This document shows, one piece after another, positions 13,613 through 33,169 of a DNA stretch of 35,707 bases. Positions within the stretch are counted from its first letter, which is position 1. Every line of letters starts with the position of its first letter. The DNA is from a virus. Both the position numbers and the translations under genes were made by a program. Location: the IMG/VR virus record IMGVR_UViG_3300030333_004663, positions 1-35,707 of that record, one strand, 5' to 3'. The notes under the pieces were generated by a model. The model did not search any database. It had not been told where the DNA came from and saw only the letters and a program-made list of their open reading frames with translations.

Positions 13613-13619
13613 ATAAATG

Positions 13620-13625
13620 ATAATA
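13620..13625 (-). promoter_or_regulatory. -10 box for a leaderless early transcript
   Basis: On the minus strand TATTAT is followed by CATTTAT and then ATG at 13612, a 7-nt gap that places the transcription start on the start codon. A TTGAAG at about 13641-13646 could be the -35 box, with a short 15-nt spacer. The same spacing is found at 2081-2094. Confidence 0.5.
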
Positions 13626-13678
13626 ACAGAAAAAAAACGTCTTCAAGTTATTAAAAAAGAATATAAACCTTTCCTTAG

Positions 13679-13780: not shown

Positions 13781-13797
13781 TGCTAACCAAGCCGAAG

Positions 13798-13840
13798 CGG
13801 AGTACCTTGTAACACACTTTATATATTACAAGCTACTCCG
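13798..13840. repeat. 15-bp stem inverted repeat
   Basis: CGGAGTACCTTGTAA (13798-13812) and TTACAAGCTACTCCG (13826-13840) are complementary at 14 of 15 positions around a 13-nt AT-rich loop. No U-run follows on either strand. It is one of the longest hairpins in the window and lies inside the noncoding island between two early operons. Confidence 0.7.
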
Positions 13841-13857
13841 TAGGTCTGTTTGGTTAA

Positions 13858-13915
13858 GAGACTCTATTAGTGTAGCTTAATCATGAGACTCCCTTATGTA
13901 GCTTTATACTCATGA
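13858..13915. repeat. Tandem direct repeat of about 30 bp
   Basis: Unit 1 (13858-13886) and unit 2 (13885-13915) both run GAGACTC..TTA.TGTAGCTT.AT..CATGA, with small indels. They are head to tail and share two bases. On the minus strand each encodes a possible start followed by a few codons (MSIKLHKGVS and MIKLH), but these are too short to call. Confidence 0.65.
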
Positions 13916-13933
13916 AAGAATTTAAATACATAC

Positions 13934-13995
13934 GATGAACCCTGCTTAACAAAGGAAAGGAGGACTTCGCACTGTTGCCAGTTACAAGGTTCATC
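13934..13995 (-). ncRNA. Candidate stem-loop RNA with anti-Shine-Dalgarno loop
   Basis: GATGAACC (13934-13941) and GGTTCATC (13988-13995) form a perfect 8-bp stem, supported by a second TAAC/GTTA stem inside. Read on the minus strand the loop contains CCTCCTTTC (complement of 13955-13963), identical to nine bases of the usual 3' end of bacterial 16S rRNA. On the plus strand the same stretch is a perfect Shine-Dalgarno sequence but has no convincing reading frame after it (a TTG 11 nt on opens 27 codons). Whether it is transcribed is unknown. Confidence 0.35.
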
Positions 13996-14021
13996 TTATA
14001 TGTATATGTATATATGATATA

Positions 14022-14043
14022 TCTAAGAGTTCTCACTCTTAGA
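14022..14043. terminator. Terminator hairpin after the VWA gene
   Basis: TCTAAGAGT (14022-14030), loop TCTC, ACTCTTAGA (14035-14043): a perfect 9-bp stem. The leftward gene ends at 14046, directly before it. On the plus strand it is followed by TTTTATT, so the U-run favours termination of rightward transcripts; for the leftward transcript it is a hairpin with an AT-rich but not U-rich tail. Confidence 0.55.
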
Positions 14044-14045
14044 TT

Positions 14046-15593: not shown

Positions 15594-16332
15594 TATTAAG
15601 CTCCATATTGTTTAAGTCTTTGTCATCAACTTCGTCTGATAATATGATTGCGTCTAATAATTCATCAGCTCTATCTCCAAAGATAAGATTAGCTGCAGTC
15701 TCTTTATCAAGACCTTTACCTATAAGTTCAAAGAACTCACGCCAAGCTCTAATAGATAGCCTAGTGTCCATATCTTCTGATAAAGATGTTTCTACAATGA
15801 TACTTCTCCAGGCTTCTGGAAACATTTCCAAAGCTTTAGGATGTATTTCATTGACGTTAATTTTGACAGGGAACCTATCTTTAAGGGCCATAGGTAAGCT
15901 CTCAGGTAGAGAGTTTGTAGTTGCTATGACTGTAAATCCTTCAGCTGGTCTTACAGTTTCCTTATTGTCGTTGTTCAATGTCAATTGTGCAATGTCTTTG
16001 TCATCTAATATAGCGTGCAAGAATGTCATTGCGTCTGGTGATGCGTGGTCAATTTCGTTAACTACTAATCTACCACCATTACGCCATGCTTGTATTGCTA
16101 TACCGTCATGCCATTCAAATCCACCGTCTGAACTTGGTTTATAGAAACCTTCCAAGTTAGCTGACGCTGTATCTTCCGTCATTGTTATTTGATATACATT
16201 TGGTTCACCTTGCATTGTGTAACCAATTGCATTTGTTGCAGCTGCATATGTTTTACCTGTACCCGGTGGGCCGTATAACAATATTCTGTCTGCATTTCCA
16301 ATAGCATTTGCTACTAAATTCCAACAATCCAT
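15577..16332 (-). CDS. MoxR/CobS-type AAA+ ATPase
   Basis: 251 aa. Walker A is GPPGTGKT (21-28) very near the N-terminus; Walker B region is RLVVNEID (87-94), with Asn where Asp is usual; sensor 1 is TVIATTN (133-139); ALKDRFPVKI carries the likely arginine finger (R152). The MTEDTASANLEGFY segment fits the helix-2 insert of MoxR ATPases. Start ATG 16332 has GAAGGAG upstream and overlaps the previous stop. It should form a ring working with the VWA protein encoded next. The Asn in Walker B could slow hydrolysis. Confidence 0.8.
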   Translation of the reverse strand: MDCWNLVANAIGNADRILLYGPPGTGKTYAAATNAIGYTMQGEPNVYQITMTEDTASANLEGFYKPSSDGGFEWHDGIAIQAWRNGGRLVVNEIDHASPDAMTFLHAILDDKDIAQLTLNNDNKETVRPAEGFTVIATTNSLPESLPMALKDRFPVKINVNEIHPKALEMFPEAWRSIIVETSLSEDMDTRLSIRAWREFFELIGKGLDKETAANLIFGDRADELLDAIILSDEVDDKDLNNMELNNETNT

Positions 16333-16640
16333 TATTCTCCTTCCGTTGCTGGTACAAACTTACAATATATATCTATATCTCCGTCTGTATTTTTTCTTTG
16401 TGATATAACGAACTTACCTTTGTCAGCTAAGTGTGCTATATTTCTTTGAGTCATATTCTCAATGTTTGCTTTAACTCCTGATATCCAAGTATCAGTTGTT
16501 GCTATTACATACCATACATTAGGTGTTGACAATAAAGTTCTTACCTTATCATCAGTTAAAATTTGTGGACGTTTGCCCTTTTTATTTAAACCCGCAGCAG
16601 GTGGTTCTTGCCTACTCAGACTCGTCTTCTTTATTACCAT
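16332..16640 (-). CDS. Small protein of the AAA+/VWA operon (102 aa)
   Basis: Starts at ATG 16640 with AGGAAGGAAGT upstream, inside the end of the previous gene (29-nt overlap). Basic N-terminus (KKTSLSRQEPPAAGLNKKGK) and a compact C-terminal part (NVWYVIATTDTWISGVKANI, MTQRNIAHLADKGKFVIS). The last part, about residues 45-95, may be a small winged-helix fold (NIENMTQRNIAHL then a beta wing), but this is weak. Coupled to the ATPase, so probably a partner or adaptor. Confidence 0.55.
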   Translation of the reverse strand: MVIKKTSLSRQEPPAAGLNKKGKRPQILTDDKVRTLLSTPNVWYVIATTDTWISGVKANIENMTQRNIAHLADKGKFVISQRKNTDGDIDIYCKFVPATEGE

Positions 16641-17184
16641 TACTTCCTTCCTGTAACCAGTTTTCTACGTCATCAGCTACGTTAAGATGTTCTCTTAATA
16701 CGTTGCTTTGTGTTTGTTCTAAAGCTAACTTAACATTGTCAGCTTTAACACATTGTATTGTCGTAGGTTCCGTTAATAAGAACTCTGCAAAGTTACCTTC
16801 TTTTATCATATACTCTCTGAAATCTTGTAAGTTCTCATAAGTAAATGGTATATTATCATAGCCTGGTGGTGTGTCAGTAAGTATATGTATATAGTTACTC
16901 AAGTTGTCAGTTTTCCTAGCAAAGTCTATTTTCTTTGCTTGTGTTATTGCTGACCAAGTATCAGGTGCCATTACTGAATAGATAAATACAAGTACTTCAT
17001 CTTCTTCATCTTTAGCAAACCCCATACTTCCACCAAATAGTTTAGGACCTACGTCTTTCTTAAAATAAGCAAATGTAACGTGATATTCTGAATCTCGTTT
17101 TGGTTGTATCTCAATAAATTGATGTACTTCATTATGCTTATCATGTTCTCCGTCATGGTCACAACTATTAAAATGTTCTGTCAT
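16612..17184 (-). CDS. Acidic protein with His/Asp-rich N-terminus
   Basis: 190 aa with a GGAG RBS. Residues 3-22 contain HFNSCDHDGEHDKHNEVHQF, seven His or Cys among acidic residues, a likely metal-binding patch. Residues 30-110 alternate beta strands (EYHVTFAYFKKDVGPKLFGG, EVLVFIYSVMAPDTWSAITQ). The C-terminus is very acidic. It lies 75 nt after the ParB-like gene with a hairpin leader between. Could supply metal or substrate to the HEMGH/VWA partner; that is inference only. Confidence 0.55.
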   Translation of the reverse strand: MTEHFNSCDHDGEHDKHNEVHQFIEIQPKRDSEYHVTFAYFKKDVGPKLFGGSMGFAKDEEDEVLVFIYSVMAPDTWSAITQAKKIDFARKTDNLSNYIHILTDTPPGYDNIPFTYENLQDFREYMIKEGNFAEFLLTEPTTIQCVKADNVKLALEQTQSNVLREHLNVADDVENWLQEGSNGNKEDESE

Positions 17185-17197
17185 GTTTCTCCTCTCA

Positions 17198-17236
17198 GAA
17201 TTTTCGGGAATAGCCCATAAAGGGACACGAAAATTC
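17198..17236 (-). promoter_or_regulatory. Structured leader hairpin
   Basis: GAATTTTCG (17198-17206) pairs with CGAAAATTC (17228-17236); CCC/GGG (17214-17216, 17222-17224) form a small inner stem. It sits 14 nt upstream of the start at 17184, right before the ribosome binding site, in the same position as the junction leaders near 22 kb. No U-run follows on the minus strand. Confidence 0.6.
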
Positions 17237-17258
17237 GGGCCCCTTATGAACTGTTAGA

Positions 17259-18029
17259 TTAGAGATGCTTACGCAACTCTAACCAAGTATCAACTAGTTT
17301 ATCCATTTCTTTCTTAAGAACTGGTAGCTCTTTGAAATTGACATATGCATTTGCCTTAAAGAACATATTAAGTAAACGAACATAAGTGGTAGGACTTTGT
17401 CCTATCCATTTCTTATTTAAGTTTTCTTGTGCCTTTGTAACTGTCTTATTTAATTTAAGATGTCCAAGGCCTTTCTTTAAGGGTACTGCAGTACCTTTAG
17501 TAGAAGTACCAAAGTTCTTAATGATACTTTGTACTTTCTTTTCAGGCTTATTAATATCCATAGATATTACTGTCATAGACATACCTAATTCGTCTGCTGT
17601 CTTGACATATTGTTTGATTTCAATAGCTGAATAAGGTAAACCATGTTCCATATTGTGGATAAATGATTGTCTTATTGCTTCTGTATCATCTTTTGTCTCT
17701 AGATATTTAACAGGTATCTGTTTGTTACCTAGTTGTCTAGCAGCTTCGTATCTATGCCAACCGTCTAGTATTCTCCCTGTTGGTTTACCCTTCCTAGACT
17801 CAACTATAATTGCAGGAAATACGTCGCCATTTCTCATAGCGTCTTTGTAGATATTTACTCTGTTACTTTGCAACATAGTTCTAGGGTATATTGTTTCGTC
17901 GCATTTAAGCGAACTTAAATTAGTAAGCTCGTCAGCTCCAGCTGCTTTAACAAGTTTAGCTTTATTAGCCATAACTTTATTAGCTACCTTTTGCTTTCGT
18001 TCTTTACTAAGTTTTTCAGCAGTAGTCAT
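17259..18029 (-). CDS. ParB-like nuclease/CTPase-domain protein
   Basis: 256 aa. Residues about 45-110 form the ParB N-terminal domain: ETIYPRTMLQSNRVNIYKDA, FPAIIVESRKGKPTGRILDG and GWHRYEAARQLGNKQIPVKY. The GxHRxxAARxLG motif (90-101) is the nucleotide and phosphate-binding signature. A helical region follows with a possible HTH (SAIEIKQYVKTADELGMSMT) and a basic middle segment. ATG overlaps the stop of the RAMP-like gene. Phage ParB-like proteins act as DNA clamps, nucleases or regulators; the sequence does not decide. Confidence 0.7.
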   Translation of the reverse strand: MTTAEKLSKERKQKVANKVMANKAKLVKAAGADELTNLSSLKCDETIYPRTMLQSNRVNIYKDAMRNGDVFPAIIVESRKGKPTGRILDGWHRYEAARQLGNKQIPVKYLETKDDTEAIRQSFIHNMEHGLPYSAIEIKQYVKTADELGMSMTVISMDINKPEKKVQSIIKNFGTSTKGTAVPLKKGLGHLKLNKTVTKAQENLNKKWIGQSPTTYVRLLNMFFKANAYVNFKELPVLKKEMDKLVDTWLELRKHL

Positions 18030-18643
18030 TAACTCTCCTTTGCGTTAGTTACGTCGAATCTACCGAATGAACCACCTTTCTGTGGTCTATAGTCTCCAAT
18101 GCCTTGTTTCTTACCTGCGTCGCTAACTACTTTCGTAAGCACATCAAGTACTGATGTTCCTTGCAATGAATTCTCCATTAATTCTCTGTCAACTTCGACA
18201 CTAAATGTTAGTTTCCATTGGGGAACAACTGGTCTAGCACGCATAACACCTGCACGTGAGACAACTACTCTACGTTTATCAATGTTATATGATTTAATAG
18301 GTCGATTAGACAGAGATTTAAGTTCTAAGCTATCAACTGGTTCAATCATTAAGTGATTAAGTAGAGTCTTTAAGTTAGTTCTACCTAACTTAAAAGCTTT
18401 AGATGCTTCTAATATAGAAGCTCTGATTTGTGCTGAAGGAACAACTAAGTTACCTTTGTCATTCCTATATGTTCTCATTTCAGCCTCATCCTCATCGTTA
18501 TACTTTTTAGTACTACGTGTTTGTGTGACTTCGCCTGAATTCGCACCCATCATAGATGGATTATTGAACATAACACCAGGCTCTTTACCTTGTATTTCAA
18601 ACGTATATACGTCAACTGGTGACGTAAATGTGAGTTTTGCCAA
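18029..18643 (-). CDS. Cas7/RAMP-like phage protein
   Basis: 204 aa, TTG start preceded by AGGAAGGAGA, 5 nt away. Motifs of a widespread phage family are visible: VMFNNPSMMG near residue 24, NLVVPSAQIRASILEASKAF (65-84), RRVVVSRAGVMRARPVVPQW with KLTFSVEV, and KQGIGDYRPQKGGSFGRFDV at the C-terminus. The Gly-rich GxGDxRPxxGGxFGRFxV end resembles the glycine-rich loop of Cas7-like RAMP proteins, which is why I call it RAMP-like; this is recollection plus motif reading, not a search. No CRISPR array is present. It is coupled with ParB by a one-base overlap and has a tRNA-like element just upstream. Confidence 0.5.
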   Translation of the reverse strand: MAKLTFTSPVDVYTFEIQGKEPGVMFNNPSMMGANSGEVTQTRSTKKYNDEDEAEMRTYRNDKGNLVVPSAQIRASILEASKAFKLGRTNLKTLLNHLMIEPVDSLELKSLSNRPIKSYNIDKRRVVVSRAGVMRARPVVPQWKLTFSVEVDRELMENSLQGTSVLDVLTKVVSDAGKKQGIGDYRPQKGGSFGRFDVTNAKES

Positions 18644-18682
18644 TGCAATCTCCTTCCTGCTTTCGCTTTTTATTTGTTTGAG

Positions 18683-18755
18683 TGGACGTGCTGGGAATTG
18701 AACCCAGGTATATAGTACTTCAAAGGGGAAATTCTATATCTGACCTATCACGCCC
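18683..18755 (-). tRNA. tRNA-like element with abnormal D and anticodon arms
   Basis: The 73-nt element has a 7-bp acceptor stem (GGGCGTG with CACGTCC, one G-U), discriminator A, and a perfect T arm: CTGGG, loop TTCAATT, CCCAG. The middle does not fold as a tRNA: instead ATATAG pairs with CTATAT around an 18-nt loop, and AGGT with ACCT around that, so there is one long arm instead of D and anticodon arms. No credible anticodon with U33 is found. No encoded CCA. It may be a degenerate tRNA or a tRNA mimic recognised by RNase P or RNase Z. It ends 39 nt before the RAMP-like start codon. Confidence 0.5.
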
Positions 18756-18761
18756 GTAACC

Positions 18762-18851
18762 TTACCAAGCCTTTCCAATCCATTGCAAAGCGAACCCAAC
18801 CTGACCCCAGCTATCCTGTGCGTACCAAGTTAAATCTATATACTCAAGCAA
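18762..18851 (-). CDS. Possible Trp-rich micro-ORF (29 aa)
   Basis: TTG start overlapping the TGA of another small frame upstream; reads MLEYIDLTWYAQDSWGQVGF then ALQWIGKAW. Five Trp or Tyr in a hydrophobic context suggests a small membrane peptide. The DNA here is also one of the C-rich repeat islands (on the plus strand), so coding is uncertain. The frame is open a further 17 codons upstream but without a start codon. Confidence 0.25.
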   Translation of the reverse strand: MLEYIDLTWYAQDSWGQVGFALQWIGKAW

Positions 18852-18906
18852 TGCATAAGTGAATAAAGGAAGTAATCCACTCTCCCCACTTACTATTTTT
18901 CTTCAT
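18844..18906 (-). CDS. Possible micro-ORF (20 aa)
   Basis: ATG 18906, MKKNSKWGEWITSFIHLCIA, with only a weak ACGAG before it. Its stop overlaps the TTG of the following micro-ORF, a coupling seen all over this virus. Short, hydrophobic at the end. Low support. The 18756-19000 stretch holds no stronger gene; it has C-rich repeat-like sequence related to 13.68-13.78 kb. Confidence 0.25.
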   Translation of the reverse strand: MKKNSKWGEWITSFIHLCIA

Positions 18907-18997
18907 CTCGTAAGCACCTATACATTGCATTCAATATATAGTGCCTTACCTTGCCGATGCCGACCACACCTTATCATACCTCTGCCAAGCATGGCAT

Positions 18998-19062
18998 AAA
19001 AAATGGTAGTGTTTTCAGTAAGCACGCAACAGGGCTGTAAAGTGCCTCTTACTCACACTACC
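18998..19062 (-). terminator. Strong intrinsic terminator of the right early operon
   Basis: On the minus strand GGTAGTGT (from 19062) pairs with ACACTACC (19005-19012), enclosing a second stem AGTAAG/CTTACT and a short ACAG/TGT hairpin, and is followed by ATTTTTT (U-run 18998-19003). It comes 6 nt after the stop of the small gene at 19069. It separates the right operon from the tRNA-like and RAMP-like transcription unit. Confidence 0.75.
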
Positions 19063-19068
19063 AAAACT

Positions 19069-19152
19069 TTATTCTTCTTCTAACCAAGACATATGTACAC
19101 GTTCTCCGTCAACGTATATATATTCTCCGATTATACTATTGTTCTTCTGCAC
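19069..19152 (-). CDS. Possible small protein ending in EEE (27 aa)
   Basis: GTG start overlapping the end of the 77-aa gene; reads MQKNNSIIGEYIYVDGERVH then MSWLEEE. The GEYIYVDGERV part resembles the start of the 41-aa protein at 21167 (MYFVYVNGEF). No good ribosome binding site, so start is uncertain, but the frame runs to just before the terminator and carries the same EEE end as five other early proteins. Confidence 0.4.
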   Translation of the reverse strand: MQKNNSIIGEYIYVDGERVHMSWLEEE

Positions 19153-19369
19153 TGTTTAATCTGTCAATTGCTTTTGTTATCTGATAAAGTATAGCTTCGT
19201 CAAGCATTGCTGCATAACCTTGTACTCTATCATCAACTTCGTCATTAAGTGCCCATCTTTTGACGTCAACAATTGTCCATTGCAGTACGTTAATTTTCTC
19301 ATGAACTGGTAGCTGGTCTAGTTGTTCCCAGGTTCTATCTAATTCGTTCATTAATAGATTTTCGTCCAT
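19136..19369 (-). CDS. Small acidic helical protein (77 aa)
   Basis: ATG 19369 with GGGAAGGAAC upstream and a GC-rich leader hairpin before that. Sequence is all-helical (MDENLLMNELDRTWEQLDQL, KINVLQWTIVDVKRWALNDE) and ends LNSAEEQ. No family recognised. Confidence 0.6.
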   Translation of the reverse strand: MDENLLMNELDRTWEQLDQLPVHEKINVLQWTIVDVKRWALNDEVDDRVQGYAAMLDEAILYQITKAIDRLNSAEEQ

Positions 19370-19381
19370 ATGTTCCTTCCC

Positions 19382-19414
19382 AACTCTATATGGCGGCTTT
19401 CGCCGCCTAGAGTT
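19382..19414 (-). promoter_or_regulatory. GC-rich structured leader hairpin
   Basis: AACTCTA (19382-19388) pairs with TAGAGTT (19408-19414); inside, GGCGGC-TTTC-GCCGCC is a very stable stem. It is 13 nt upstream of the start at 19369. On the plus strand it is followed by TTTTAT and would look like a terminator, but all genes here run leftward. Confidence 0.6.
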
Positions 19415-19469
19415 TTATATTATTTACATTTTTTATAATGTTTGACATAACGACTGTACAATTACTTAA

Positions 19470-19559
19470 CTATGCTTTCGACATTGTACCTTGGGGCTCA
19501 CGAAGTCCCGACTTATACATAGTGTATCGTACCAACCTGCTACTACTCAACTGCGTCAT
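19470..19559 (-). CDS. Possible small basic protein (29 aa)
   Basis: ATG 19559 preceded by GGAG at 6 nt; MTQLSSSRLVRYTMYKSGLR then EPQGTMSKA. It overlaps the end of the 17-codon frame upstream (19543-19596) in a different frame. The GGAG spacing and coupling are the main support. No family. The gap 19415-19469 holds nothing recognisable. Confidence 0.35.
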   Translation of the reverse strand: MTQLSSSRLVRYTMYKSGLREPQGTMSKA

Positions 19560-19596
19560 AAGCAGCTCCACATGGCCTTTCCTTGGGGACTGTCAA
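19543..19596 (-). CDS. Possible 17-codon leader peptide
   Basis: TTG start with AAAGGAG just 4 nt upstream, reading MTVPKERPCGAAYDAVE. Upstream (19646-19681) are two small hairpins, GGTA-TAAA-TACC and GGCGTA/TACGCC. It might serve as an upstream frame controlling the 29-aa frame. Weakly supported. Confidence 0.3.
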   Translation of the reverse strand: MTVPKERPCGAAYDAVE

Positions 19597-19689
19597 GTTC
19601 TCCTTTCGAATTACTGTGTCCCGTGTTGGACGAAAGTTTATCGCTGGTATAAATACCATAAGGCGTACTGTTATATACGCCCTAGCTAT

Positions 19690-19863
19690 TTATTCCTCTT
19701 CTTGTATAGGAATTTCTAATCCTACAAATTTAGCTACGTGTTGTACAAGTTGAACTTGTTTCTTTAACACATCAGCTATATTTAGGAATTGCTTAATAAC
19801 TTCGTCATTAAATGCTTCTTGTTGACATTTAACGTCATCATTAGAACAACATTCATTAGCCAT
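19690..19863 (-). CDS. Small protein ending in EEE (57 aa)
   Basis: ATG 19863 is joined to the previous stop by TAATG, with AAAAAGGTGC as ribosome binding site. MANECCSNDDVKCQQEAFND has three Cys at the N-terminus, followed by a helix (FLNIADVLKKQVQLVQHVAK) and the end IPIQEEE. The Cys cluster may bind metal. Unknown function. Confidence 0.65.
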   Translation of the reverse strand: MANECCSNDDVKCQQEAFNDEVIKQFLNIADVLKKQVQLVQHVAKFVGLEIPIQEEE

Positions 19864-20147
19864 TATGCACCTTTTTCCTCTCTATAAAATTCGTTCATTT
19901 CTATCATTTGTGCTTTAATGTCATCATCGTCGCTAGTTTCATTAATAAATTCTGTAAAATCATTACGTAATTTATCATCCTCTAGCATTGCCACAACAAA
20001 TCCTTTTTGAAAATCACTTCCAAATTTGTCAGCTAGATATGTAGATAGAAATAATTGTCCTTGTGCTAATAATCTAATCTTTTTCTGCATATTTTCTAGC
20101 ATTTTGATTAAGTCATTAACTAACTCGTTCTTATCTTCTTCGTTCAT
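19863..20147 (-). CDS. Helical acidic protein (94 aa)
   Basis: ATGA overlap with the previous gene, whose last codons (GAGGAAGA) serve as the ribosome binding site. Acidic helix (MNEEDKNELVNDLIKMLENM), then KKIRLLAQGQLFLSTYLADK and an acidic end. Probably a small partner of its neighbours; no family recognised. Confidence 0.6.
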   Translation of the reverse strand: MNEEDKNELVNDLIKMLENMQKKIRLLAQGQLFLSTYLADKFGSDFQKGFVVAMLEDDKLRNDFTEFINETSDDDDIKAQMIEMNEFYREEKGA

Positions 20148-20503
20148 TCTTCCTCCATTAAACGCTCTACAATGTTAGATTGAAACATTTGGTTCCATTC
20201 TTCATGCATAACTTCTAGCTCCTCAAATGTAGCTATAAAATCACCAGCAAATATGTCATTTACTGATTCTTCCTCTTGGTTATCAAGATTAATAGCATGC
20301 ATATCAAATAAATCGCCCCAGTTATGAATAACTTTATATCCCATGTTCACGCCTAACATATCCAATTCGAAAGAAACACCGCCTCTATGTGGTGTATCAT
20401 CATGTTGTGGATGAACTACTATATTTGTAATTCTATTTCTTGTGAATTTTGGGAGATAATCTAATATAGCTCCTGCACTATATGTATTTGTTTCTGTTCT
20501 CAA
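20144..20503 (-). CDS. Early protein ending in EEE (119 aa)
   Basis: TTG 20503 is chosen as start because AAAAGGAGG lies 9 nt upstream; longer readings would run through the leader hairpin. Contents: RTETNTYSAGAILDYLPKFT, RITNIVVHPQHDDTPHRGGV with three His and Asp, SFELDMLGVNMGYKVIHNWG, and end SNIVERLMEEE. The beta-rich middle resembles no family I know. Confidence 0.6.
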   Translation of the reverse strand: MRTETNTYSAGAILDYLPKFTRNRITNIVVHPQHDDTPHRGGVSFELDMLGVNMGYKVIHNWGDLFDMHAINLDNQEEESVNDIFAGDFIATFEELEVMHEEWNQMFQSNIVERLMEEE

Positions 20504-20533
20504 TACGAACAACCTCCTTTTATAAAATTGCGA

Positions 20534-20552
20534 CATGTGGCTTGTCCACATG
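20534..20552 (-). promoter_or_regulatory. Structured leader hairpin
   Basis: CATGTGG (20534-20540), loop CTTGT, CCACATG (20546-20552), a perfect 7-bp stem located 31 nt upstream of the TTG start at 20503 and just after the upstream terminator. Loop on the plus strand is CTTGT, the same five bases as in the junction leaders at 22.0 and 22.37 kb. Confidence 0.5.
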
Positions 20553-20566
20553 CCATTTTTGCAAAT

Positions 20567-20616
20567 AAAAAAAACGTACCATATGTAGTATATCTATTGC
20601 TAGACATACTACATAT
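20567..20616 (-). terminator. Intrinsic terminator of the SSB-like gene
   Basis: A 16-bp inverted repeat with one mismatch (20581-20596 and 20601-20616, ATATGTAGTAT... arms) and a 4-nt loop is followed on the minus strand by GGTACG and eight U (20567-20574). It begins 14 nt after the SSB-like stop. The long AT stem plus U8 makes a clear terminator despite 6 nt between them. Confidence 0.75.
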
Positions 20617-20629
20617 AGTGTTAGTTCTC

Positions 20630-21049
20630 TTATTCTTCTTCTGAAGTATAAGTGAACACGTTATCGACTTTTGTTGGTGCTTGCCATATATCAAGAATAT
20701 TTAACTCATTCTTGTACACTGCTTTACCAAAACTATCGGTATAGTTATTACTTTGCAATTTTGCACGTATCATAAGCCTACCAAATGGTCTTGGTTGTTC
20801 AGCATTATGGTTAGCTTTAAGAAATGCTTCGATTTCATCTACTAACTCATTGCCATATGCAACACAAGTTTCACTAGCTTGCTTATTTTGTCTGCCGTCA
20901 GCAACAAACTTCAATCCATTGATGAATTTGTTACCTGTTTTGCTAGAAACACCAACTCTAGCACTACCGTCAGTAGTAACTGTTGTTAATGCACCTGTAA
21001 GTATCACTTCGTTTACGTTCGATAGTGTACCTGCGTACTGTTTTAGCAA
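20630..21049 (-). CDS. SSB-like OB-fold protein ending in EEE
   Basis: 139 aa from TTG 21049, the only start with a good ribosome binding site (AGAAAGGGG, 7 nt). OB-fold features of bacterial SSB: SNVNEVILTGALTTVTTDGS at the N-terminus (compare NxVxLxGxL in SSB), SSKTGNKFINGLKFVADGR, then FGRLMIRAKLQSNNYTDSFG and KAVYKNELNILDIWQAP as the last strands. The C-terminus is YTSEEE, acidic but without the PF tip of bacterial SSB. It would coat single-stranded DNA for the annealing protein. A terminator follows. Confidence 0.5.
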   Translation of the reverse strand: MLKQYAGTLSNVNEVILTGALTTVTTDGSARVGVSSKTGNKFINGLKFVADGRQNKQASETCVAYGNELVDEIEAFLKANHNAEQPRPFGRLMIRAKLQSNNYTDSFGKAVYKNELNILDIWQAPTKVDNVFTYTSEEE

Positions 21050-21120
21050 CGTGTAGCCCCTTTCTAAATCGTACTTATTGTTCCGATTATTATAGATTAT
21101 CGATAAAAAAAACTTATGGT

Positions 21121-21159
21121 CGGTCGGCGGGCTTGGCCCGTATTGGAACAAGCCGACCG
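21121..21159 (-). promoter_or_regulatory. Three-way junction RNA element, copy 4
   Basis: Plus-strand layout: CGGTCGGC (21121-21128), GGGC-TTG-GCCC (21129-21139), GTA, TTG-GAA-CAA (21143-21151), GCCGACCG (21152-21159). It lies 7 nt after the 41-aa gene stop and 72 nt upstream of the SSB-like start, and is followed on the minus strand by a U8 run (21105-21112) after 8 nt, so here it may also attenuate. A TATAAT at 21089-21094 (minus strand) could restart transcription. Confidence 0.7.
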
Positions 21160-21166
21160 GCCTTTC

Positions 21167-21292
21167 TCATCCAGTGAGAATTTCGATGCTATCTTGCGGA
21201 TATGTATGTTTAAAGTGAATAAAAATTTTATCCTCATCATAGAATTCATCAAATGCTTTAATGAACTCACCATTAACATATACAAAATACAT
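21167..21292 (-). CDS. Small acidic protein (41 aa)
   Basis: ATG 21292 with a perfect AAAGGAGAT ribosome binding site. MYFVYVNGEFIKAFDEFYDE, then DKIFIHFKHTYPQDSIEILTG. A short beta hairpin (YFVYVNGEF) plus helix. Missed by length cut-offs. No family; start resembles GEYIYVDGE of the gene at 19069. Confidence 0.65.
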   Translation of the reverse strand: MYFVYVNGEFIKAFDEFYDEDKIFIHFKHTYPQDSIEILTG

Positions 21293-21318
21293 ATATCTCC
21301 TTTTTTATAATTTATTAA

Positions 21319-21374
21319 CCAACACTCTCCCTTCAAAACCTAATCGTTATGCAATTATGGTGTTAAAGTGTTGG
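21319..21374 (-). promoter_or_regulatory. Leader stem upstream of the 41-aa gene
   Basis: CCAACACT (21319-21326) pairs with AGTGTTGG (21367-21374), and flanking TTATT/AATAA can extend it, enclosing about 40 nt without an obvious inner fold. It lies 26 nt upstream of the start. The stretch 21375-21441 has no gene. Confidence 0.5.
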
Positions 21375-21441
21375 ATAATAAATAGTCTCAAGGTTCGCTA
21401 ACTAATTTACTCGCTGAACTTTCAACTTGGATTTTTGTTTA

Positions 21442-21546
21442 TTATTTTGTTTTTCGCCTATCCGTAGAGTTAATTTTATGGAGAATGACTGAACTCCACT
21501 CTTTAGGTGAAACCTCTTTTTTACCAATGTAATACCTTTTACCCAT
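21442..21546 (-). CDS. 34-aa basic protein
   Basis: ATG 21546 joined by TAATG to the upstream gene. MGKRYYIGKKEVSPKEWSSV then ILHKINSTDRRKTK. Compact, basic, with a YYIGKKEVSPKEW start reminiscent of small phage proteins that begin with a beta hairpin. Unknown function; support is coupling and coding-like composition. Confidence 0.55.
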   Translation of the reverse strand: MGKRYYIGKKEVSPKEWSSVILHKINSTDRRKTK

Positions 21547-21704
21547 TAGTAATTCCCTTCTGCCTGATTATTTATCTGTGTATCATATTCTTCACTCATT
21601 AAACTTGCGTCTAATAAATCTTTTAATCTAATATGAAATGGTCTATCTTTATTCCATTTATCAAATAAATACCAACTTATTACTATTTTTAATTTTTTTA
21701 ACAT
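21546..21704 (-). CDS. 52-aa protein
   Basis: ATG 21704 with GAAAGGATATT upstream and a three-way junction leader 18 nt before it. MLKKLKIVISWYLFDKWNKD, RPFHIRLKDLLDASLMSEEY, end NNQAEGNY. Basic hydrophobic N-terminus could touch the membrane; acidic C-terminus. No family recognised. Confidence 0.6.
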   Translation of the reverse strand: MLKKLKIVISWYLFDKWNKDRPFHIRLKDLLDASLMSEEYDTQINNQAEGNY

Positions 21705-21721
21705 AATATCCTTTCATAAAA

Positions 21722-21763
21722 TAGCGTGCGGGCTGTAAGCCCTAGTCGGAACGACGCACGCTA
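21722..21763 (-). promoter_or_regulatory. Three-way junction RNA element, copy 3
   Basis: Plus-strand layout: TAGCGTGC (21722-21729), GGGCT-GTA-AGCCC (21730-21742), TA, GTCG-GAA-CGAC (21745-21755), GCACGCTA (21756-21763). All three helices are perfect. It sits between the stop of the 68-aa gene and the start at 21704, 18 nt from that start codon and next to the ribosome binding site. No U-run. Confidence 0.8.
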
Positions 21764-21779
21764 CTCTACTTATTATTAT

Positions 21780-21986
21780 TTAGAATTCCTGGTCAAATAC
21801 ATTACCAACTTCATCAATATTTAATTTAACTAAATCTTGATTAGTTTGACTTTGTATTTGGCCTTCATAATGAATTTGGACTTGCTTTCTTAGCATTTCT
21901 CTAATTTTATTCATATCCTCTATGGATAGAACTTCTTGTAGAGTACCAATTGCATTATTAATAGCCTTTGTATCTAAATATATCAT
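21780..21986 (-). CDS. 68-aa helical protein
   Basis: ATG 21986 with GAAAGGT 5 nt upstream. MIYLDTKAINNAIGTLQEVL, SIEDMNKIREMLRKQVQIHY, end DEVGNVFDQEF. Amphipathic helices only; possibly a small regulator or oligomer. A three-way junction leader lies 15 nt before its start codon. Confidence 0.6.
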   Translation of the reverse strand: MIYLDTKAINNAIGTLQEVLSIEDMNKIREMLRKQVQIHYEGQIQSQTNQDLVKLNIDEVGNVFDQEF

Positions 21987-22000
21987 TTTTACCTTTCATA

Positions 22001-22038
22001 GCATTCGGGCCTTGTGCCCTCGTCTGAAAGACGAATGC
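22001..22038 (-). promoter_or_regulatory. Three-way junction RNA element, copy 2
   Basis: Plus-strand layout: GCATTC (22001-22006), GGGC-CTTGT-GCCC (22007-22019), TC, GTCT-GAA-AGAC (22022-22032), GAATGC (22033-22038). Compared with copies 1 and 3, P1 is different but still pairs, and the GAA-loop stem changes from GTCG/CGAC to GTCT/AGAC: a compensated change. It precedes the ribosome binding site of the gene at 21986. Confidence 0.8.
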
Positions 22039-22104
22039 GTTCTATTATTCTTTACTAAAATCGCTGCTAGTATCAGATATCCTCATCTAGCTGGAAATAA
22101 AGAC

Positions 22105-22141
22105 AAATGGTAGCGACTATATCTTATAATCACTACCATTT
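22105..22141 (-). terminator. Hairpin after the zinc-ribbon gene
   Basis: AAATGGTAG (22105-22113) pairs with CTACCATTT (22133-22141), with GA/TC closing inside. It starts 12 nt after the stop at 22154. Downstream on the minus strand is GTCTTTATTT, only modestly U-rich, so termination would be partial. Between 22042 and 22104 only a 13-codon frame (MRISDTSSDFSKE) is visible. Confidence 0.45.
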
Positions 22142-22153
22142 ATCAAGTGTAAG

Positions 22154-22348
22154 TTATGACTTATGCATACCTTCACCACAAGGAGAACATAGAGTTTGGT
22201 CCCACTCGACTTTCTCATCAAAGTCTTGGAACTTATTACTCCACCAAGAAACTACATACTTAAAGTTAGTACCTAGTTTCTTTTCATCCTTGCATGAACG
22301 ACATACATATGATTTAGGTTTAGGTTCAACAACCTCTTCCTTATCCAT
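22154..22348 (-). CDS. Zinc-ribbon protein (64 aa)
   Basis: ATG 22348 is preferred: AGAAAGGA lies 9 nt upstream, while a TTG further up lies inside the leader. MDKEEVVEPKPKSYVCRSCK then DEKKLGTNF, a Trp-rich middle (VVSWWSNKFQDFD) and TLCSPCGEGMHKS. CxxC...CxxC makes a likely zinc ribbon for nucleic-acid or protein binding. A three-way junction leader lies 21 nt before the start. Confidence 0.65.
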   Translation of the reverse strand: MDKEEVVEPKPKSYVCRSCKDEKKLGTNFKYVVSWWSNKFQDFDEKVEWDQTLCSPCGEGMHKS

Positions 22349-22368
22349 ATCTACATATCCTTTCTTAA

Positions 22369-22408
22369 GCAAAGCGGGCCTTGTGCCCTTGTCGGAACGA
22401 CGCTTTGC
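22369..22408 (-). promoter_or_regulatory. Three-way junction RNA element, copy 1
   Basis: Plus-strand layout: GCAAAGC (22369-22375), GGGC-CTTGT-GCCC (22376-22388), TT, GTCG-GAA-CGAC (22391-22401), GCTTTGC (22402-22408). As RNA (minus strand): P1, a stem with UUC loop, a GGGC..GCCC stem, then P1' and the ribosome binding site of the gene at 22348. A 9-codon frame (MFKEYVLNI, 22422-22451) lies just upstream. Confidence 0.8.
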
Positions 22409-22522
22409 CAGTCTGACTTATCTAGATATTTAACACATATTCTTTGAACATACTAGAACATTAAGGTATCGTATTAATCTATATAGTGTGTATTTTAATT
22501 TATATCATCATACTTTTCTACA

Positions 22523-22621
22523 TATGGATTTATCCATACAATATCTTTGATATTGTTTAACTTAGGTAGGTAGAATATCTATGATATTCTTTTAGCTTTG
22601 CTAAATCCTTTGACCTACCTA
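22523..22621. other. Dense hairpin cluster between early and late arms
   Basis: In 99 bp: TATGGA-TTTA-TCCATA (22523-22538); CAATATC-TTT-GATATTG (22539-22555); then TAGGTAGGT (22563-22571) paired with ACCTACCTA (22613-22621) enclosing AGAATATC-TAT-GATATTCT (22572-22590) and TTTAGC-TTT-GCTAAA (22591-22605). The last three again form a three-way junction with triloops, but with AT-rich arms. No gene covers it. It may be a leader, a binding site or a packaging or replication signal near the terminase. 22452-22522 holds nothing recognisable. Confidence 0.6.
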
Positions 22622-22658
22622 TGTTAATCTTACCTTTCACTTTATAGTAAGTATGTAA

Positions 22659-22898
22659 TTAAAAATATGCTGGTAATTTTATAGAACGTAAGTAATCATT
22701 GGTGTTCTTTAGTCTGTTTGGGTAGGGGCGGGCATCTTTTTTATAGGTCTTAATAAGAGTTTTGAACAGTTCTTGGGTACTTAATTTGCGTTTCTACGTT
22801 ACACTATTACGAGTCTTAAGCTTTCTGCCTCCCGATGGCACCTTCACCTGTTTCTGTTTACTTGCTCCTAATGTTTGTAATATCTGGTACTTTAGCAC
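22659..22898 (-). pseudogene. Small basic protein gene interrupted by an in-frame TAG
   Basis: From GTG 22898 the frame reads 34 codons (MLKYQILQTLGASKQKQVKV PSGG.. SVT), a TAG at 22794-22796, then 44 codons in the same frame (KRKLSTQELFKTLIKTYKKD, ARPYPNRLKNTNDYLRSIKL, PAYF) to TAA. The second half looks coding and has no ATG, GTG or TTG of its own. Explanations: a broken gene, amber readthrough, or an unusual start. TAG is a normal stop elsewhere here (terminase, 8714, 9251). The start overlaps the late promoter. Confidence 0.4.
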
Positions 22899-22904
22899 TA
22901 TAAT
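22875..22904 (+). promoter_or_regulatory. Late promoter for the terminase operon
   Basis: TTGTAA (22875-22880), 18-nt spacer, TATAAT (22899-22904), followed 21 nt later by AGGAG and then ATG 22942. This is a sigma70-type promoter with a perfect -10 box. The preceding stretch 22662-22874 is covered only by the interrupted leftward frame. Confidence 0.6.
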
Positions 22905-22941
22905 AAAATCTACGCAACAATCTACAGGAGATTAGACTTTT

Positions 22942-24849
22942 ATGCCAAATTTAGTGTGTGTGGCACCTAACTGTAAAAAGAGACTATCAGGCAAACAACG
23001 TAAGTTTTGTTCAGAGCAATGTAATAAGAGAACCTGGGCACAAACAAAGCGTCATAATAAGAAAATTGAAGAAAAACCAATCAACCAGACTTATAAATCT
23101 GACGAGGGCGACTACGCAAGTGTACGTAGGGGCAAACATTATGAGGAATTCAAAGCTTTATATGCAGAATCCCTAGCCCAGGGCGACATTACCGTTATTG
23201 GTGTGGCTAATGTTTTAGACGTTAGTTCCGCTACGGTATCTAGAATGCTTGCAGCATACAAATTAGACGAGGTTACAGCAACAAAGCAGTATGATTGGAC
23301 GCAACCTGAAGAAGCAACTGAAAGTTTAAAAAATTTTTCTAGCTTCCGCTCTAAGTATTTTGCAACGGAAACTGGAGAGAAATATGAAACTGCAGATTTT
23401 CACGAAAACTGGATTAATAGTATCCTTAAAGCTATAGATGAAGGTAATGAATTATTAATATTAAGCCCCCCAAGACATGGAAAGACAGAACTTTTAATAC
23501 ATTTTGCTGTCTATCAAATTATGCTAAACCCGAATATACGTATCATGTGGGTTGGTGGAAACGAAGATATAGCAAAGAATGCTGTTAGTTCTGTATTAGA
23601 CCACTTAGAACAAAACGAAAGGTTAATAGAAGACTTTTGTGGTCCAGGAAAAAACTTTAAACCTGAGAATAGGTCAGGAAAGAACTGGTCTCAGAATCAA
23701 TTTACTGTAGGTACAAGAACAGTACCTGGTATTAAGTCTCCAACTATGGTTGCTGTAGGTAAAGGTGGAAAGATATTATCAAGAGACTGTGATTTAATTA
23801 TTGCTGATGACATTGAAGACCATCAAACAACAATGCAACCTGGTGCAAGAGAAAATACTAGACAATGGTGGACAACAACTCTTTCATCAAGAAAAGAGGA
23901 ACATACTGCTGTAGTAGTAATTGGTTCAAGACAGCACTCTGATGATTTATATCATCACTTACTTGCTAATGATGCCTTTGAATCTATTGTTGAATCTGCA
24001 CATGATATAGCTTGTCCTATACCTGACCACTTAGAAGATGAACATACCGATTGTTTATTATGGCCAGGTAAACGTACATTCAAATGGTTAATGACTAGAC
24101 AGAGAGCTGCAGAAACTACAGGTGGTAGAAAAATCTATGAGATGGTTTATTACAATCAAGCATTTGTTGAAGGTACACAAATCTTTACTATGGATATGAT
24201 TGACAACTGCATGAGGCCTGATTTAGTTATGGGACAGATACCAGGTGGTTTACATTTAGTTGCAGGCCTTGACCCTGCTTCTGCAGGTTATCAAGCAGCT
24301 GTACTATGGGGAATAAACTCCTATAGAGGTGAGCTTTTCTTAATTGATTTAGAGAATAGACAAGGTGGGGGAGTGAAGCATGCTTTACAGATTATGTCTG
24401 ACTGGTATCACAAATATGATTTACAACATTGGGTAATTGAAGAGAATGGTTTTCAGACTGCTATTAGACAAGATGATAAAATAAAAGAATTTGTTTTAAG
24501 GTCAGGTATAACTATGCAAGGACATGTTACTGGAAAAAATAAACATGACCCTATGTATGGTGTAGGTTCTATGGCAGGTTTATTTGAAAACCAGAAAATA
24601 CATTTACCTACAGGAAACTCAGAAAGTATGTCTAAAGTTAATGCTTATAAAACACAGTTATTATATTTTGATGGAAAACCTGTTTCACAGCGAAACAAGG
24701 AAAAAACTGATATAGTTATGGCAGGATGGTTTCCAATGAAAGTGTTCAGAAGAATGAATAAAGAACAATTGGCAACTATGGGATTAGACTATAATGCAAG
24801 TTATACTGATTTTGGATTTACGGAGATGAACGAAGCACCATGGGGATAG
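22942..24849 (+). CDS. terL: Terminase large subunit with N-terminal zinc finger and HTH
   Basis: 635 aa, AGGAG 11 nt before ATG. N-terminus: C6, C11, C23 and C27 (VCVAPNCKKRL, KFCSEQCNKR) form a putative zinc finger; residues 82-107 (DITVIGVANVLDVSSATVSR) are a clear helix-turn-helix. Then the packaging ATPase: Walker A SPPRHGKT (175-182), Walker B LIIADD (285-290) with ED after it. C-terminal RNase H-like nuclease: AGLDPASAGYQAAVLWG, then VIEENGFQ and TDIVMAGWF, giving the acidic metal residues. Zinc finger plus HTH are normally small-terminase functions, so DNA recognition may be built in. Ends with TAG overlapping the portal start. Confidence 0.9.
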   Translation: MPNLVCVAPNCKKRLSGKQRKFCSEQCNKRTWAQTKRHNKKIEEKPINQTYKSDEGDYASVRRGKHYEEFKALYAESLAQGDITVIGVANVLDVSSATVSRMLAAYKLDEVTATKQYDWTQPEEATESLKNFSSFRSKYFATETGEKYETADFHENWINSILKAIDEGNELLILSPPRHGKTELLIHFAVYQIMLNPNIRIMWVGGNEDIAKNAVSSVLDHLEQNERLIEDFCGPGKNFKPENRSGKNWSQNQFTVGTRTVPGIKSPTMVAVGKGGKILSRDCDLIIADDIEDHQTTMQPGARENTRQWWTTTLSSRKEEHTAVVVIGSRQHSDDLYHHLLANDAFESIVESAHDIACPIPDHLEDEHTDCLLWPGKRTFKWLMTRQRAAETTGGRKIYEMVYYNQAFVEGTQIFTMDMIDNCMRPDLVMGQIPGGLHLVAGLDPASAGYQAAVLWGINSYRGELFLIDLENRQGGGVKHALQIMSDWYHKYDLQHWVIEENGFQTAIRQDDKIKEFVLRSGITMQGHVTGKNKHDPMYGVGSMAGLFENQKIHLPTGNSESMSKVNAYKTQLLYFDGKPVSQRNKEKTDIVMAGWFPMKVFRRMNKEQLATMGLDYNASYTDFGFTEMNEAPWG

Positions 24850-26630
24850 AAAATTTAGATATAAAGAACTACAAAGAGATAGTAGATAATGCTACTCAGT
24901 TAGTTACTGGAAAACCCACTAAGCACAGACAAGTACAAAAAGCAAGAATCAAAGCTATTTTAAATGGTGGTGCTGATGGTATGAAAGCATTGTTAGGAAA
25001 TAAGATGGAGACATCTGATGCTGATTTATTACCAGCTCCTAATATGCTTCAATCAGGTATTGATAGATTAGCTCAAAAAATATCAGGAGTACCTCAAGTT
25101 AAAGTTGATATATTAAATCACAACACTTCAGATAGAGCAAAAGTTAGAGCAGAGAGATTAGAACGTATTGTTACTAGCTATGATGAAAAACAAAATTTAA
25201 ATTTACAGTTGGCTCAAGTAGCACGATGGTTGCCTGGGTATGGTTATTCTGCTTGGATAATATCAACACGCACAGATAAAAACGGATATATATACCCAAC
25301 AGCAGAATTACGAGACCCATACGATACCTTCCCAGGTAACTTTGGCCCTGACCAAGAACCAAGAGAATTAGCTGTATTACGTAGAGTACCAAGATATAAA
25401 CTTGCACAGATTTATCCTGAGTTTGCAAAAGAGATTTTAAATCCAGATGAATCTGAAAATCAACAAGAAGCAGCTTTCGGTGCTGGAGGCCTTGGCCAGA
25501 CGTATGAAAACGAGAAACAAAATAATTGGGAAGATAATACAGGCCAAGGTGTCCGCATAATTGAATATTATGATTTAGGTGGAACTTACATTGTATTCCC
25601 TGAAAAGAATATGATATTAGATTTCATACCAAACTTTTTAAGTACTCCTCCTTTTGTATTTATGAAGAGAGTTTCATTTGATGAACTAAAAGGTCAGTAC
25701 GACCACGTTATAGGTTTAATGGCTATGATGGCAAAAATAAATATTATGTCAGCTATAGCAATGGAAGACTCAGTATTTACAGAAACAAACATATCTGGTG
25801 AACTTGAATCAGGACAATATAGAAAAGGTAGATTTGCAATTAACTATCTTGCTCCTGGTACACAAGTAAGTAAACCTCAGAACAATGTTCCTTATCAATT
25901 ATTTCAACAAGTTGACAGACTTGAGAGACAGTTGCGTATGGTTGGTGGCTACCCGGTTACCGATGACTCCCAGTCTCCTAATTCCTTTGTAACTGGTGCA
26001 GGTCTGTCAGAATTAAATAGCACTATGTCATTAATGATTAATGAATATAGAGAAATCATTAGACATGGTTTGCAGAAGATGGATGAAAAACGATTAGAAC
26101 TAGATGTTCTACTATCATTACAGTTTCCTGAATTAAATAAAAAACCAATACAAGGTTTTTATGCAGGAACAGCTTTTGCAGAAAATTATTCTCCAGCTAA
26201 TGATATTGGTGGGGATTACAGAACCAGACGTATTTATGGGGTAATGGCTGGTTTTGATGAACCACAGAAAATTGTTACTGGTTTGCAGCTATTGCAAGCA
26301 GGAGTTATTGATGTTGAAACGCTACAAGATAACATTGATGGCTTAGAGAATATAGCTAAAGTGCAAGAGCGTATTAGAAAGAATAAAGCTGAGAATGTTT
26401 TATTTGAATCTGTTCTTGCAAGAAGTGCTCAGGGAGACCCTGCAGCAACTATGGCAGTCATAGCGATTTATGAATATCCAGCAGAAATGACTGAGATATT
26501 AAGAATGTTCTATACTCCTCAGGAACCACAACTTGGTCCTGCAGAAGAAGAAATGATTGCACAACAACAACAGGCTGCGTTAGCACAACAAGGACCTCCA
26601 ACAGTTGCACAAGCATTAGGAGGTGCGTAA
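24840..26630 (+). CDS. Portal protein
   Basis: 596 aa; the start ATG 24840 lies inside the terminase end (10-nt overlap), the classic terL-portal order. Features: long N-terminal helices, LLPAPNMLQSGIDRLAQKIS with VPQVKVD near residue 75 (clip/wing start), WLPGYGYSAWIIST, ELRDPYDTFPGNFG, a long stem helix region around LERQLRMVGGYPVTDDSQSP, and a Gln/Pro-rich tail (EEEMIAQQQQAALAQQGPPT). It forms the 12-mer ring for DNA entry. Size and layout match portals of actinophages. Confidence 0.85.
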   Translation: MGIENLDIKNYKEIVDNATQLVTGKPTKHRQVQKARIKAILNGGADGMKALLGNKMETSDADLLPAPNMLQSGIDRLAQKISGVPQVKVDILNHNTSDRAKVRAERLERIVTSYDEKQNLNLQLAQVARWLPGYGYSAWIISTRTDKNGYIYPTAELRDPYDTFPGNFGPDQEPRELAVLRRVPRYKLAQIYPEFAKEILNPDESENQQEAAFGAGGLGQTYENEKQNNWEDNTGQGVRIIEYYDLGGTYIVFPEKNMILDFIPNFLSTPPFVFMKRVSFDELKGQYDHVIGLMAMMAKINIMSAIAMEDSVFTETNISGELESGQYRKGRFAINYLAPGTQVSKPQNNVPYQLFQQVDRLERQLRMVGGYPVTDDSQSPNSFVTGAGLSELNSTMSLMINEYREIIRHGLQKMDEKRLELDVLLSLQFPELNKKPIQGFYAGTAFAENYSPANDIGGDYRTRRIYGVMAGFDEPQKIVTGLQLLQAGVIDVETLQDNIDGLENIAKVQERIRKNKAENVLFESVLARSAQGDPAATMAVIAIYEYPAEMTEILRMFYTPQEPQLGPAEEEMIAQQQQAALAQQGPPTVAQALGGA

Positions 26631-26803
26631 TGGAATACGAAAAAAAATTCTGGGATATGATTGAAACTGAATTTGGTATCTATGATATTTTAGATGATTC
26701 ACATTTACATCAATTACCTAATTCAAATTTTATAATGATGCAACCTGCCCCTGGAATAATAATTATGATAAATGAGGATTTTAATGGCAAAGAAGCGTGG
26801 TAG
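26630..26803 (+). CDS. Small protein after the portal (57 aa)
   Basis: Joined to the portal by TAATG. Acidic and hydrophobic: MEYEKKFWDMIETEFGIYDI, then LHQLPNSNFIMMQPAPGIII and the end NEDFNGKEAW. Its 3' end overlaps the next gene by 20 nt in another frame. Unknown; too short for common cut-offs. Confidence 0.55.
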   Translation: MEYEKKFWDMIETEFGIYDILDDSHLHQLPNSNFIMMQPAPGIIIMINEDFNGKEAW

Positions 26804-27206
26804 AGGCGGGTTTAGACAGGCAACTCCAAATAGGAAAAATGCTGTATCTGGGCCAGGTGCATTAAGTCAAAGAATTGATGGAAATCAACCAGTTATGAGA
26901 TTACCTAATGCTGATTATGGTGAGAGTGCAGCTTATGAAGCACAGCAACAAGGAGCTCCTTTAGGAGATAGTGGTGGAGCTAATATGCCGTTGCCATTAG
27001 CTAATGCTCCAGTTCCAGATGTATTTGGTCCTACTGAAAGACCAGGTCTTCCTCCAACTGATGGTGCTCCACTTGGAGCAGGTGCATCTCCAGTAAAAGG
27101 CAACATTAATGATGATGAAACTATACTATTAAATGAAATGATTGCAAGAAACCCTCATCCTATACTTTTACAGCTATTACATTCGAGACCTTGGTATGAC
27201 GAATAA
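26784..27206 (+). CDS. Actinophage-type head-region protein
   Basis: 140 aa from ATG 26784, which has AGGA 6 nt upstream; an upstream ATG (26772) would add MRIL. Basic start MAKKRGRGGFRQATPNRKNA, then VSGPGALSQRIDGNQPVMRL, a QQQGAPLGDSGGANMPL stretch, and FGPTERPGLPPTDGAPLGAG. Ends with a helix (LLNEMIARNPHPILLQLLHS). The SGPGALSxRxDGxQ signature after the portal is one I know from many actinobacteriophages, where its role (scaffold or head assembly) is unknown. The strongest single host hint in this window. Confidence 0.65.
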   Translation: MAKKRGRGGFRQATPNRKNAVSGPGALSQRIDGNQPVMRLPNADYGESAAYEAQQQGAPLGDSGGANMPLPLANAPVPDVFGPTERPGLPPTDGAPLGAGASPVKGNINDDETILLNEMIARNPHPILLQLLHSRPWYDE

Positions 27207-33163: not shown

Positions 33164-33169
33164 TAACTT

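Follow-up and report, generated by a model that had tools for sequence, protein, structure and literature searches.

Compensated three-way-junction leaders before putative early genes of an uncultured marine phage

The DNA analysed here (the window) is the whole of a virus record of 35,707 bases, IMG/VR IMGVR_UViG_3300030333_004663, whose source is a marine virus infecting bacteria, from an uncultured phage group. The terminase large subunit is of the PHROG-38 type, with best cultured-phage matches of only about 27-29% identity, and its relatives in the genome collection were confined to two contigs from marine MAGs, with bin assignments to Gammaproteobacteria and Actinomycetota. The 20-kb stretch from 15000 to 35000 gave zero nucleotide matches among 50,697 phage records, and a 1985-aa ORF gave no Pfam, PHROG or phage match. 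The plus strand carries the terminase and large uncharacterised ORFs, and the minus strand carries the genes for an exonuclease, an annealing protein, an ATPase and a ParB-like protein. Given the annotation of these replication-type genes, it is a reasonable inference that the minus-strand genes are early, and they are referred to here as putatively early.

Four elements lie among small genes on the minus strand (Table 1). Their coordinates in the first-pass annotation are correct, and the outer stem (P1), the UUC hairpin and the GGGC/GCCC hairpin that it described can be read directly from the sequence. In copies A, B and C, the minus-strand order is P1, GUC-N-UUC-N-GAC, N-A, GGGC-N5-GCCC and P1', with P1 being 6-8 bp long and interrupted by the junction. 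All three copies sit directly 5' of an AAAGG-type SD sequence (AAGAAAGGA for gene A), which occupies the space between the element and the start codon. The distance to the start, previously put at 15-21 nt, was measured at 14 to 20 nt, with the elements adjoining the SD as described. The three small genes downstream of this common core are unrelated to one another, and no relatives of gene B were found in viral contigs. The terminator-like hairpin that follows gene A has a canonical counterpart, with a T7 tail, in the close relative L001.

Table 1. Coordinates of the elements, genes and neighbouring hairpins in the window.
Feature	Position	Strand	Description
Element copy A	22369..22408	-	P1 GCAAAGC/GCTTTGC, GTCG-TTC-CGAC, joiner AA, GGGC-ACAAG-GCCC
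Gene A, small CxxC...CxxC protein	22154..22348	-	start 20 nt past element A
Intrinsic-terminator-like hairpin	22102..22144	-	between gene A and element B
Element copy B	22001..22038	-	P1 GCATTC/GAATGC, GTCT-TTC-AGAC, joiner GA, GGGC-ACAAG-GCCC
Gene B, 68 aa	21780..21986	-	start 14 nt past element B
Element copy C	21722..21763	-	P1 TAGCGTGC/GCACGCTA, GTCG-TTC-CGAC, joiner TA, GGGC-TTACA-GCCC
Gene C, 52 aa	21546..21704	-	start 17 nt past element C
Element 4, divergent	21121..21159	-	P1 CGGTCGGC/GCCGACCG (extends outward), weak TTG-TTC-CAA hairpin, GGGC-CAA-GCCC
Gene F, 139 aa	20630..21049	-	conserved in relatives, downstream of element 4
Further structured leader	19371..19403 (approximate)	-	adjoins SD of gene 19136-19369; AACTCTA ... 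GGCGGC-GAAA-GCCGCC ... TAGAGTT

Folded alone as RNA, the copies at 21722, 22001 and 22369 are each predicted to form a three-way junction, with energies of -27.7, -15.6 and -20.0 kcal/mol and z-scores of -5.6, -2.9 and -2.9, respectively. In the window the core pattern has three matches, compared with an expectation of 0.01 in shuffled sequence; together with the complete compensation described below, this rules out a chance repeat. The earlier statement that three copies have no U-run is borne out for A, B and C, and an intrinsic terminator at these copies was rejected because no U-run directly follows the stem.

The pairing was tested on the window copies A, B and C together with the L001 copy. 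Standard pairs were found in 59/59 pair cells, and seven pairs had both sides changed, a number reached by 0/500 shuffles. When the partner was slid by 1-3 columns, pairing fell to 22-39%. Six of the seven double-changed pairs are in P1 and the remaining one is in the UUC stem. The GGGC stem is invariant across these copies and, because it never varies, has no covariation support of its own. The bases of the junction core are conserved while P1 varies. From these alignments, selection on base pairing is well supported.

Element 4 is related to A, B and C, but divergent. It lies just past a stop codon, about 72 nt ahead of the next start and away from an SD, and a T-run starts about 9 nt downstream. 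The UUG/CAA stem is absent from its predicted minimum-energy structure, and L008, a near relative, retains the outer stem around an interior with a different fold. A model built without element 4 scored it at 23.1 bits with filters off, and missed it with default filters over 1 Mb. The single architecture ascribed to all four elements holds for A, B and C, for which the three-way junction is predicted, and less well for the fourth, which is related by model score but has a weak UUC stem, no SD nearby and only P1 kept in L008. It may still be a terminator or a chance hairpin.

The exact element is narrowly distributed. The core and copy 4 were sought as exact patterns in 2.9 million viral contigs and, outside the window, turned up only in 3300030330_002330 and 3300020471_000893. 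A looser motif scan of viral contigs returned 58 loci, mostly GC-rich chance matches without a full P1, and model matches in L083 and L084 (E 0.03) were rejected as copies since they are a different hairpin. Rfam 15, the other search suggested at the outset, gave no family in the window at the gathering threshold and, at E<=2, no family, riboswitch or known aptamer matching the elements. Termite-leu gave one weak match, with 23.6 bits where the cut-off is 51, which spans the terminator-like hairpin and reaches just into the final base of copy B.

In both close contigs (L001 and L002), the gene C orthologue is preceded by one element, with P1 GCAAGC/GCTTGC where the window has TAGCGTGC/GCACGCTA; this is an orthologous, fully compensated replacement. 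Gene B is absent from both contigs, and in the window is flanked by two element copies, a difference that represents one event only. Because the AGAACGC upstream of the window B copy matches the sequence upstream of the L001 C copy, the comparison suggests that a gene-plus-leader module was inserted at gene B. An identical 27-nt core occurs in copy A of the window and in the gene C copy of L001, ahead of different genes.

The leader of gene A takes another form in seven relatives (within L001, L002 and L010-L015), where a long stem carries hairpins or a three-way junction at its top and has the SD inside its closing part (predicted probability of being unpaired 0.09-0.34). The arms of this stem differ among relatives, yet are complementary. 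In the window, the three-way junction replaces the SD-burying stem, giving the gene A SD an unpaired probability of 0.79; the start codon of gene A may nevertheless be paired, within a distal 7-bp stem. The SDs following copies B and C are also largely unpaired in the predicted folds, and no alternative SD pairing was seen for the three window copies. In the gene A leader of L148, a G-run pairs with CACCCC, though the SD called there (AAAGG) scores open. Sequestration of the SD is established in the T4 gene e, soc, 49 and I-TevI mRNAs (PMC3014915); most gene A orthologues have leaders of this gene e type, and the window copies do not. The intergenic stretch at 22560-22625, upstream of gene A, holds a three-way-junction-like inverted repeat (TAGGTAGGT ... 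AGAATATC/GATATTCT ... TAGC/GCTA ... ACCTACCTA).

Structured leaders are enriched across the phage group. We examined the minus-strand leaders of putative early genes in about 60 terminase relatives, taking conserved early gene families with an intergenic gap of at least 60 nt (n=203). The mean folding z-score was -2.44, with 53% below -2, and this folding was stronger than in the interiors of the same early genes (mean z -1.0, 281 stretches; p=2e-13) and at overlapping starts (mean z -0.96, n=78; p 2e-7). These two controls replaced the late-strand gaps (mean z -0.3), an unfair intergenic control in that many of these gaps belong to coding sequence that had not been recognised. Relative to shuffled upstream sequence, the leaders are more paired between -65 and -20 and more open between -15 and -6, with an SD openness of 0.61 vs 0.53 (p 0.002); the SD is buried in 25 of 114 structured leaders, about a fifth. 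Only 6/113 group hairpins are followed by a U-run, with purine-rich SD sequence coming next instead, and the hairpin-to-SD spacing is maintained across leaders. A scan for sigma-70-like sites, the only promoter type covered, gave no excess upstream of the group hairpins or in the element region. The placement directly 5' of minus-strand SDs, first reported for this window, is therefore confirmed there and generalises to the whole phage group.

The sequences at this site vary widely. The further structured leader near 19371 is unlike the four elements in sequence, and several relatives have stems of 15-25 bp adjoining the SD. Six relatives (L054, L075, L076, L083, L084 and L087) carry a bulged hairpin, P1-CCUU-CCGA(C/A)-loop-(G/U)UCGG-P1', with a variable and compensated P1, in 11 distinct copies that are all on the early sense strand (11 vs 0). 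C(UAAC)G tetraloop hairpins recur in early leaders of L017-L033, with 12 sense occurrences, and a CUUAUG loop was recognised by eye as another recurring core. The UAAC loop is also found in the T4/RB69 gene 43 translational operator (PMC3014915), a likeness that may be coincidental. This group-wide occurrence of fast-changing, compensated structured leaders before putative early genes is new, and the window element looks like a very narrowly distributed member of it. Because viruses of the group place fast-changing hairpins at the same site, the fold would be one version of a group-wide handling of early messages. Three long intergenic regions (13613-14045, 18644-19135 and 19370-19862, minus strand) contain many short G-runs of the GGTTAGG, GGAAAGG and GGTAAGG types, with strong predicted minus-strand folding.

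Selection on pairing could act on RNA or on DNA hairpins. Between orthologous leader pairs, Watson-Crick pairing was restored in 117/209 double changes, compared with 48/159 in the slid control. Single changes produced 217 G-U and 181 A-C pairs, a bias towards the sense strand that is only weak, and interruptions of near-perfect stems were G-U in 19 cases and A-C in 21. Stable tetraloops numbered 19 sense vs 1 antisense, 12 of the 19 being one recurring CUAACG loop, and the sense fold was stronger than the antisense in 92/128, with the sense strands also being richer in G. The sense tetraloop excess, the sense folding, the one-strand repeat motif and the strict placement at sense SDs favour RNA, without proof; hairpins may also form in DNA, since G-U is barely preferred over A-C. 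We therefore consider the sequence evidence for selection on RNA rather than DNA hairpins to be moderate. The original description of the element as direct evidence for selection on RNA structure stands as far as pairing is concerned, and was too strong on RNA, with G-U and A-C about level in near-perfect stems and only a small G-U excess between orthologous leaders. The GAA triloops of the plus strand raised the possibility of N4-type DNA-hairpin promoters, which was rejected because the search turned up no protein resembling a virion RNA polymerase, the 1985-aa ORF having no Pfam, PHROG or phage match.

The best explanation, which we put at somewhat below an even chance, is that A, B and C act in cis as structured leader or intercistronic RNAs, insulating or protecting the site at which translation of each putatively early cistron begins. 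In its favour are the pairing, the compensated P1, the position beside the SD, the enrichment across the group, the average SD openness, the rarity of U-runs, and the sense-strand bias of stable tetraloops and of the CCUU-bulge motif; folding of the RNA in the cell, the insulating or protective effect and early timing are inferred. The minus-strand transcript of each element would fold into P1 and a two-hairpin junction ending at the 5' edge of the SD, where it would keep the SD and start codon from pairing with the upstream message and shield the 5' side of the cistron against ribonucleases. Each small gene would thereby gain an independent translation start, and P1 would turn over because the structure, not the P1 sequence, is under selection. 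The elements would then be one lineage's form of a group-wide habit of setting a hairpin against the SD, with an SD-burying stem at the same position in the gene A orthologues. Roughly one structured leader in five has a buried SD, which speaks against insulation, and a core better conserved than P1 goes beyond the need of a plain cap, being consistent with recent duplication or specific recognition. Among the three roles first proposed (stability caps, processing sites, and ligand- or protein-responsive translation control), the cap or insulator fits best, and translation control is suggested by the SD-burying orthologous leaders. Under such regulated translation, which we regard as possible though rather unlikely, the leader would switch between SD-open and SD-closed states upon a phage or host protein or a ligand, with the UUC loop and GGGC stem as the recognition site. 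The buried SDs of the gene A orthologues beside the open window leader point this way, as do the conserved core bases with a variable P1, the recurring cores with a variable P1 in relatives, and the T4 precedents of SD sequestration and of gp43 and gp32 as operator-binding repressors (PMC3014915). A switch is harder to reconcile with three window copies that show no alternative SD pairing, with one core ahead of three unrelated small genes, and with the finding of no candidate regulator and no matching Rfam riboswitch model.

The copies flanking gene B, the single element before gene C in L001, the AGAACGC match and the 27-nt core identical ahead of different genes would also be expected of a recombination or gene-shuffling module, a short repeat that lets cassettes insert between copies and makes RNA action unnecessary; the equality of G-U and A-C in near-perfect stems agrees with this. 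We consider it unlikely, as a repeat serving homology only needs no compensated P1 arms, the hairpin-SD spacing is kept, the leaders are unlike gene interiors, and there is no sigma-70 promoter excess beside the hairpins; a sigma-70 promoter cassette is likewise unsupported, with no site excess near the hairpins or in the region. Processing sites, where cutting by RNase III, RNase E or a phage nuclease would divide a polycistronic early RNA into pieces whose 5' ends are structured, are suggested by the location of the elements between co-directional genes and by the 15-25 bp stems adjoining the SD in several relatives. However, the junction-broken P1 of the window is short for RNase III, and the terminator-like hairpin between gene A and element B may mean that some of the units are transcribed separately. 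We regard processing as quite unlikely. Least probable is that these are plain terminators, or hairpins arising by chance in an AT-rich genome: the T-run beyond element 4 and its position after a stop codon, the terminator-like hairpin nearby, and early gene interiors that also fold somewhat better than shuffles are outweighed by the absence of a U-run in three copies and in nearly all group hairpins, by the shuffle expectation and by the complete compensation.

A further reading, which we think improbable, is that every early cistron of the group is tagged by a fast-evolving leader whose repeated, lineage-specific core is recognised by an RNA-binding factor of the phage or the host that evolves along with it. 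The cores would be the UUC three-way junction here and, in relatives, the CCUU-bulge, UAAC-loop and CUUAUG-loop hairpins. If true, this would amount to operon-wide translational control through a shared leader core. Phage early operons are usually described through promoters and terminators, and this uncultured marine group appears to have structures under selection, with repeated lineage-specific cores, immediately 5' of the SD in many early genes. As an insulator or a shared translational tag, the element would be a compact, portable leader that frees small genes from their neighbours, and would help to account for the gain and loss of small genes in such phages with no need to rebuild their expression.

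Early mRNAs of T7-type phages carry RNase III sites and 5' hairpins. The elements resemble these as intercistronic hairpins in a putatively early polycistronic RNA, but are short junctions, whereas the T7-type sites are long bulged duplexes. Glutamine riboswitches (glnA and Downstream-peptide RNA) are three-way junction RNAs that also occur in cyanophages, and are alike in being small junctions upstream of small ORFs; the elements differ in matching no Rfam model at the gathering threshold or at E<=2. T4 has structured initiation regions at gene e, soc, 49 and I-TevI, operators at genes 43 and 32, and split sites at genes 38 and 25 (PMC3014915). There, too, phage-mRNA hairpins at or beside the SD alter translation initiation, and the gene A orthologue leaders resemble the sequestered SDs of gene e and I-TevI. 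The T4 cases differ in being a few genes with individual structures, as opposed to a repeated one-core junction before several genes, and most leaders of the present group leave the SD open. The PeSL (promoter-stem-loop) cassettes of T4-type phages (Arbiol 2010 and Comeau 2014, cited in PMC4503421 and PMC4177764) are, as portrayed in the citing papers, also small stem-loop modules between early genes in gene-shuffling regions. Compared with that portrayal, the leaders here have no sigma-70 promoter excess, few terminator tails and a hairpin that abuts the SD.

Two other structured stretches were seen on the minus strand. Between the terminase and gene A, at about 22775-22880, a sequence (GTRAAGGTGCCATCGGGAGGCARAAAG...) is highly conserved across relatives and is probably non-coding, because the reading frames break in relatives. 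Its outer stem covaries (CTTAG/CTAAG, TTCGG/CCGAA, CTAGG/CCTAG) around an inner hairpin that has GNRA loops in some relatives, and it is possibly an unrecognised RNA, a packaging site or an origin site. At 18680-18755, a 76-nt tRNA-like or tmRNA-like fold has an acceptor GGGCGTG/CACGTCC, a T-arm CTGGG-TTCAATT-CCCAG, no D-stem and a long variable middle stem. The Rfam tmRNA model scores it at 32 bits, under the gathering score of 47, and ARAGORN called no tRNA or tmRNA gene there. The fold is conserved in L001, L002, L008 and L013, with changes in the middle stem.
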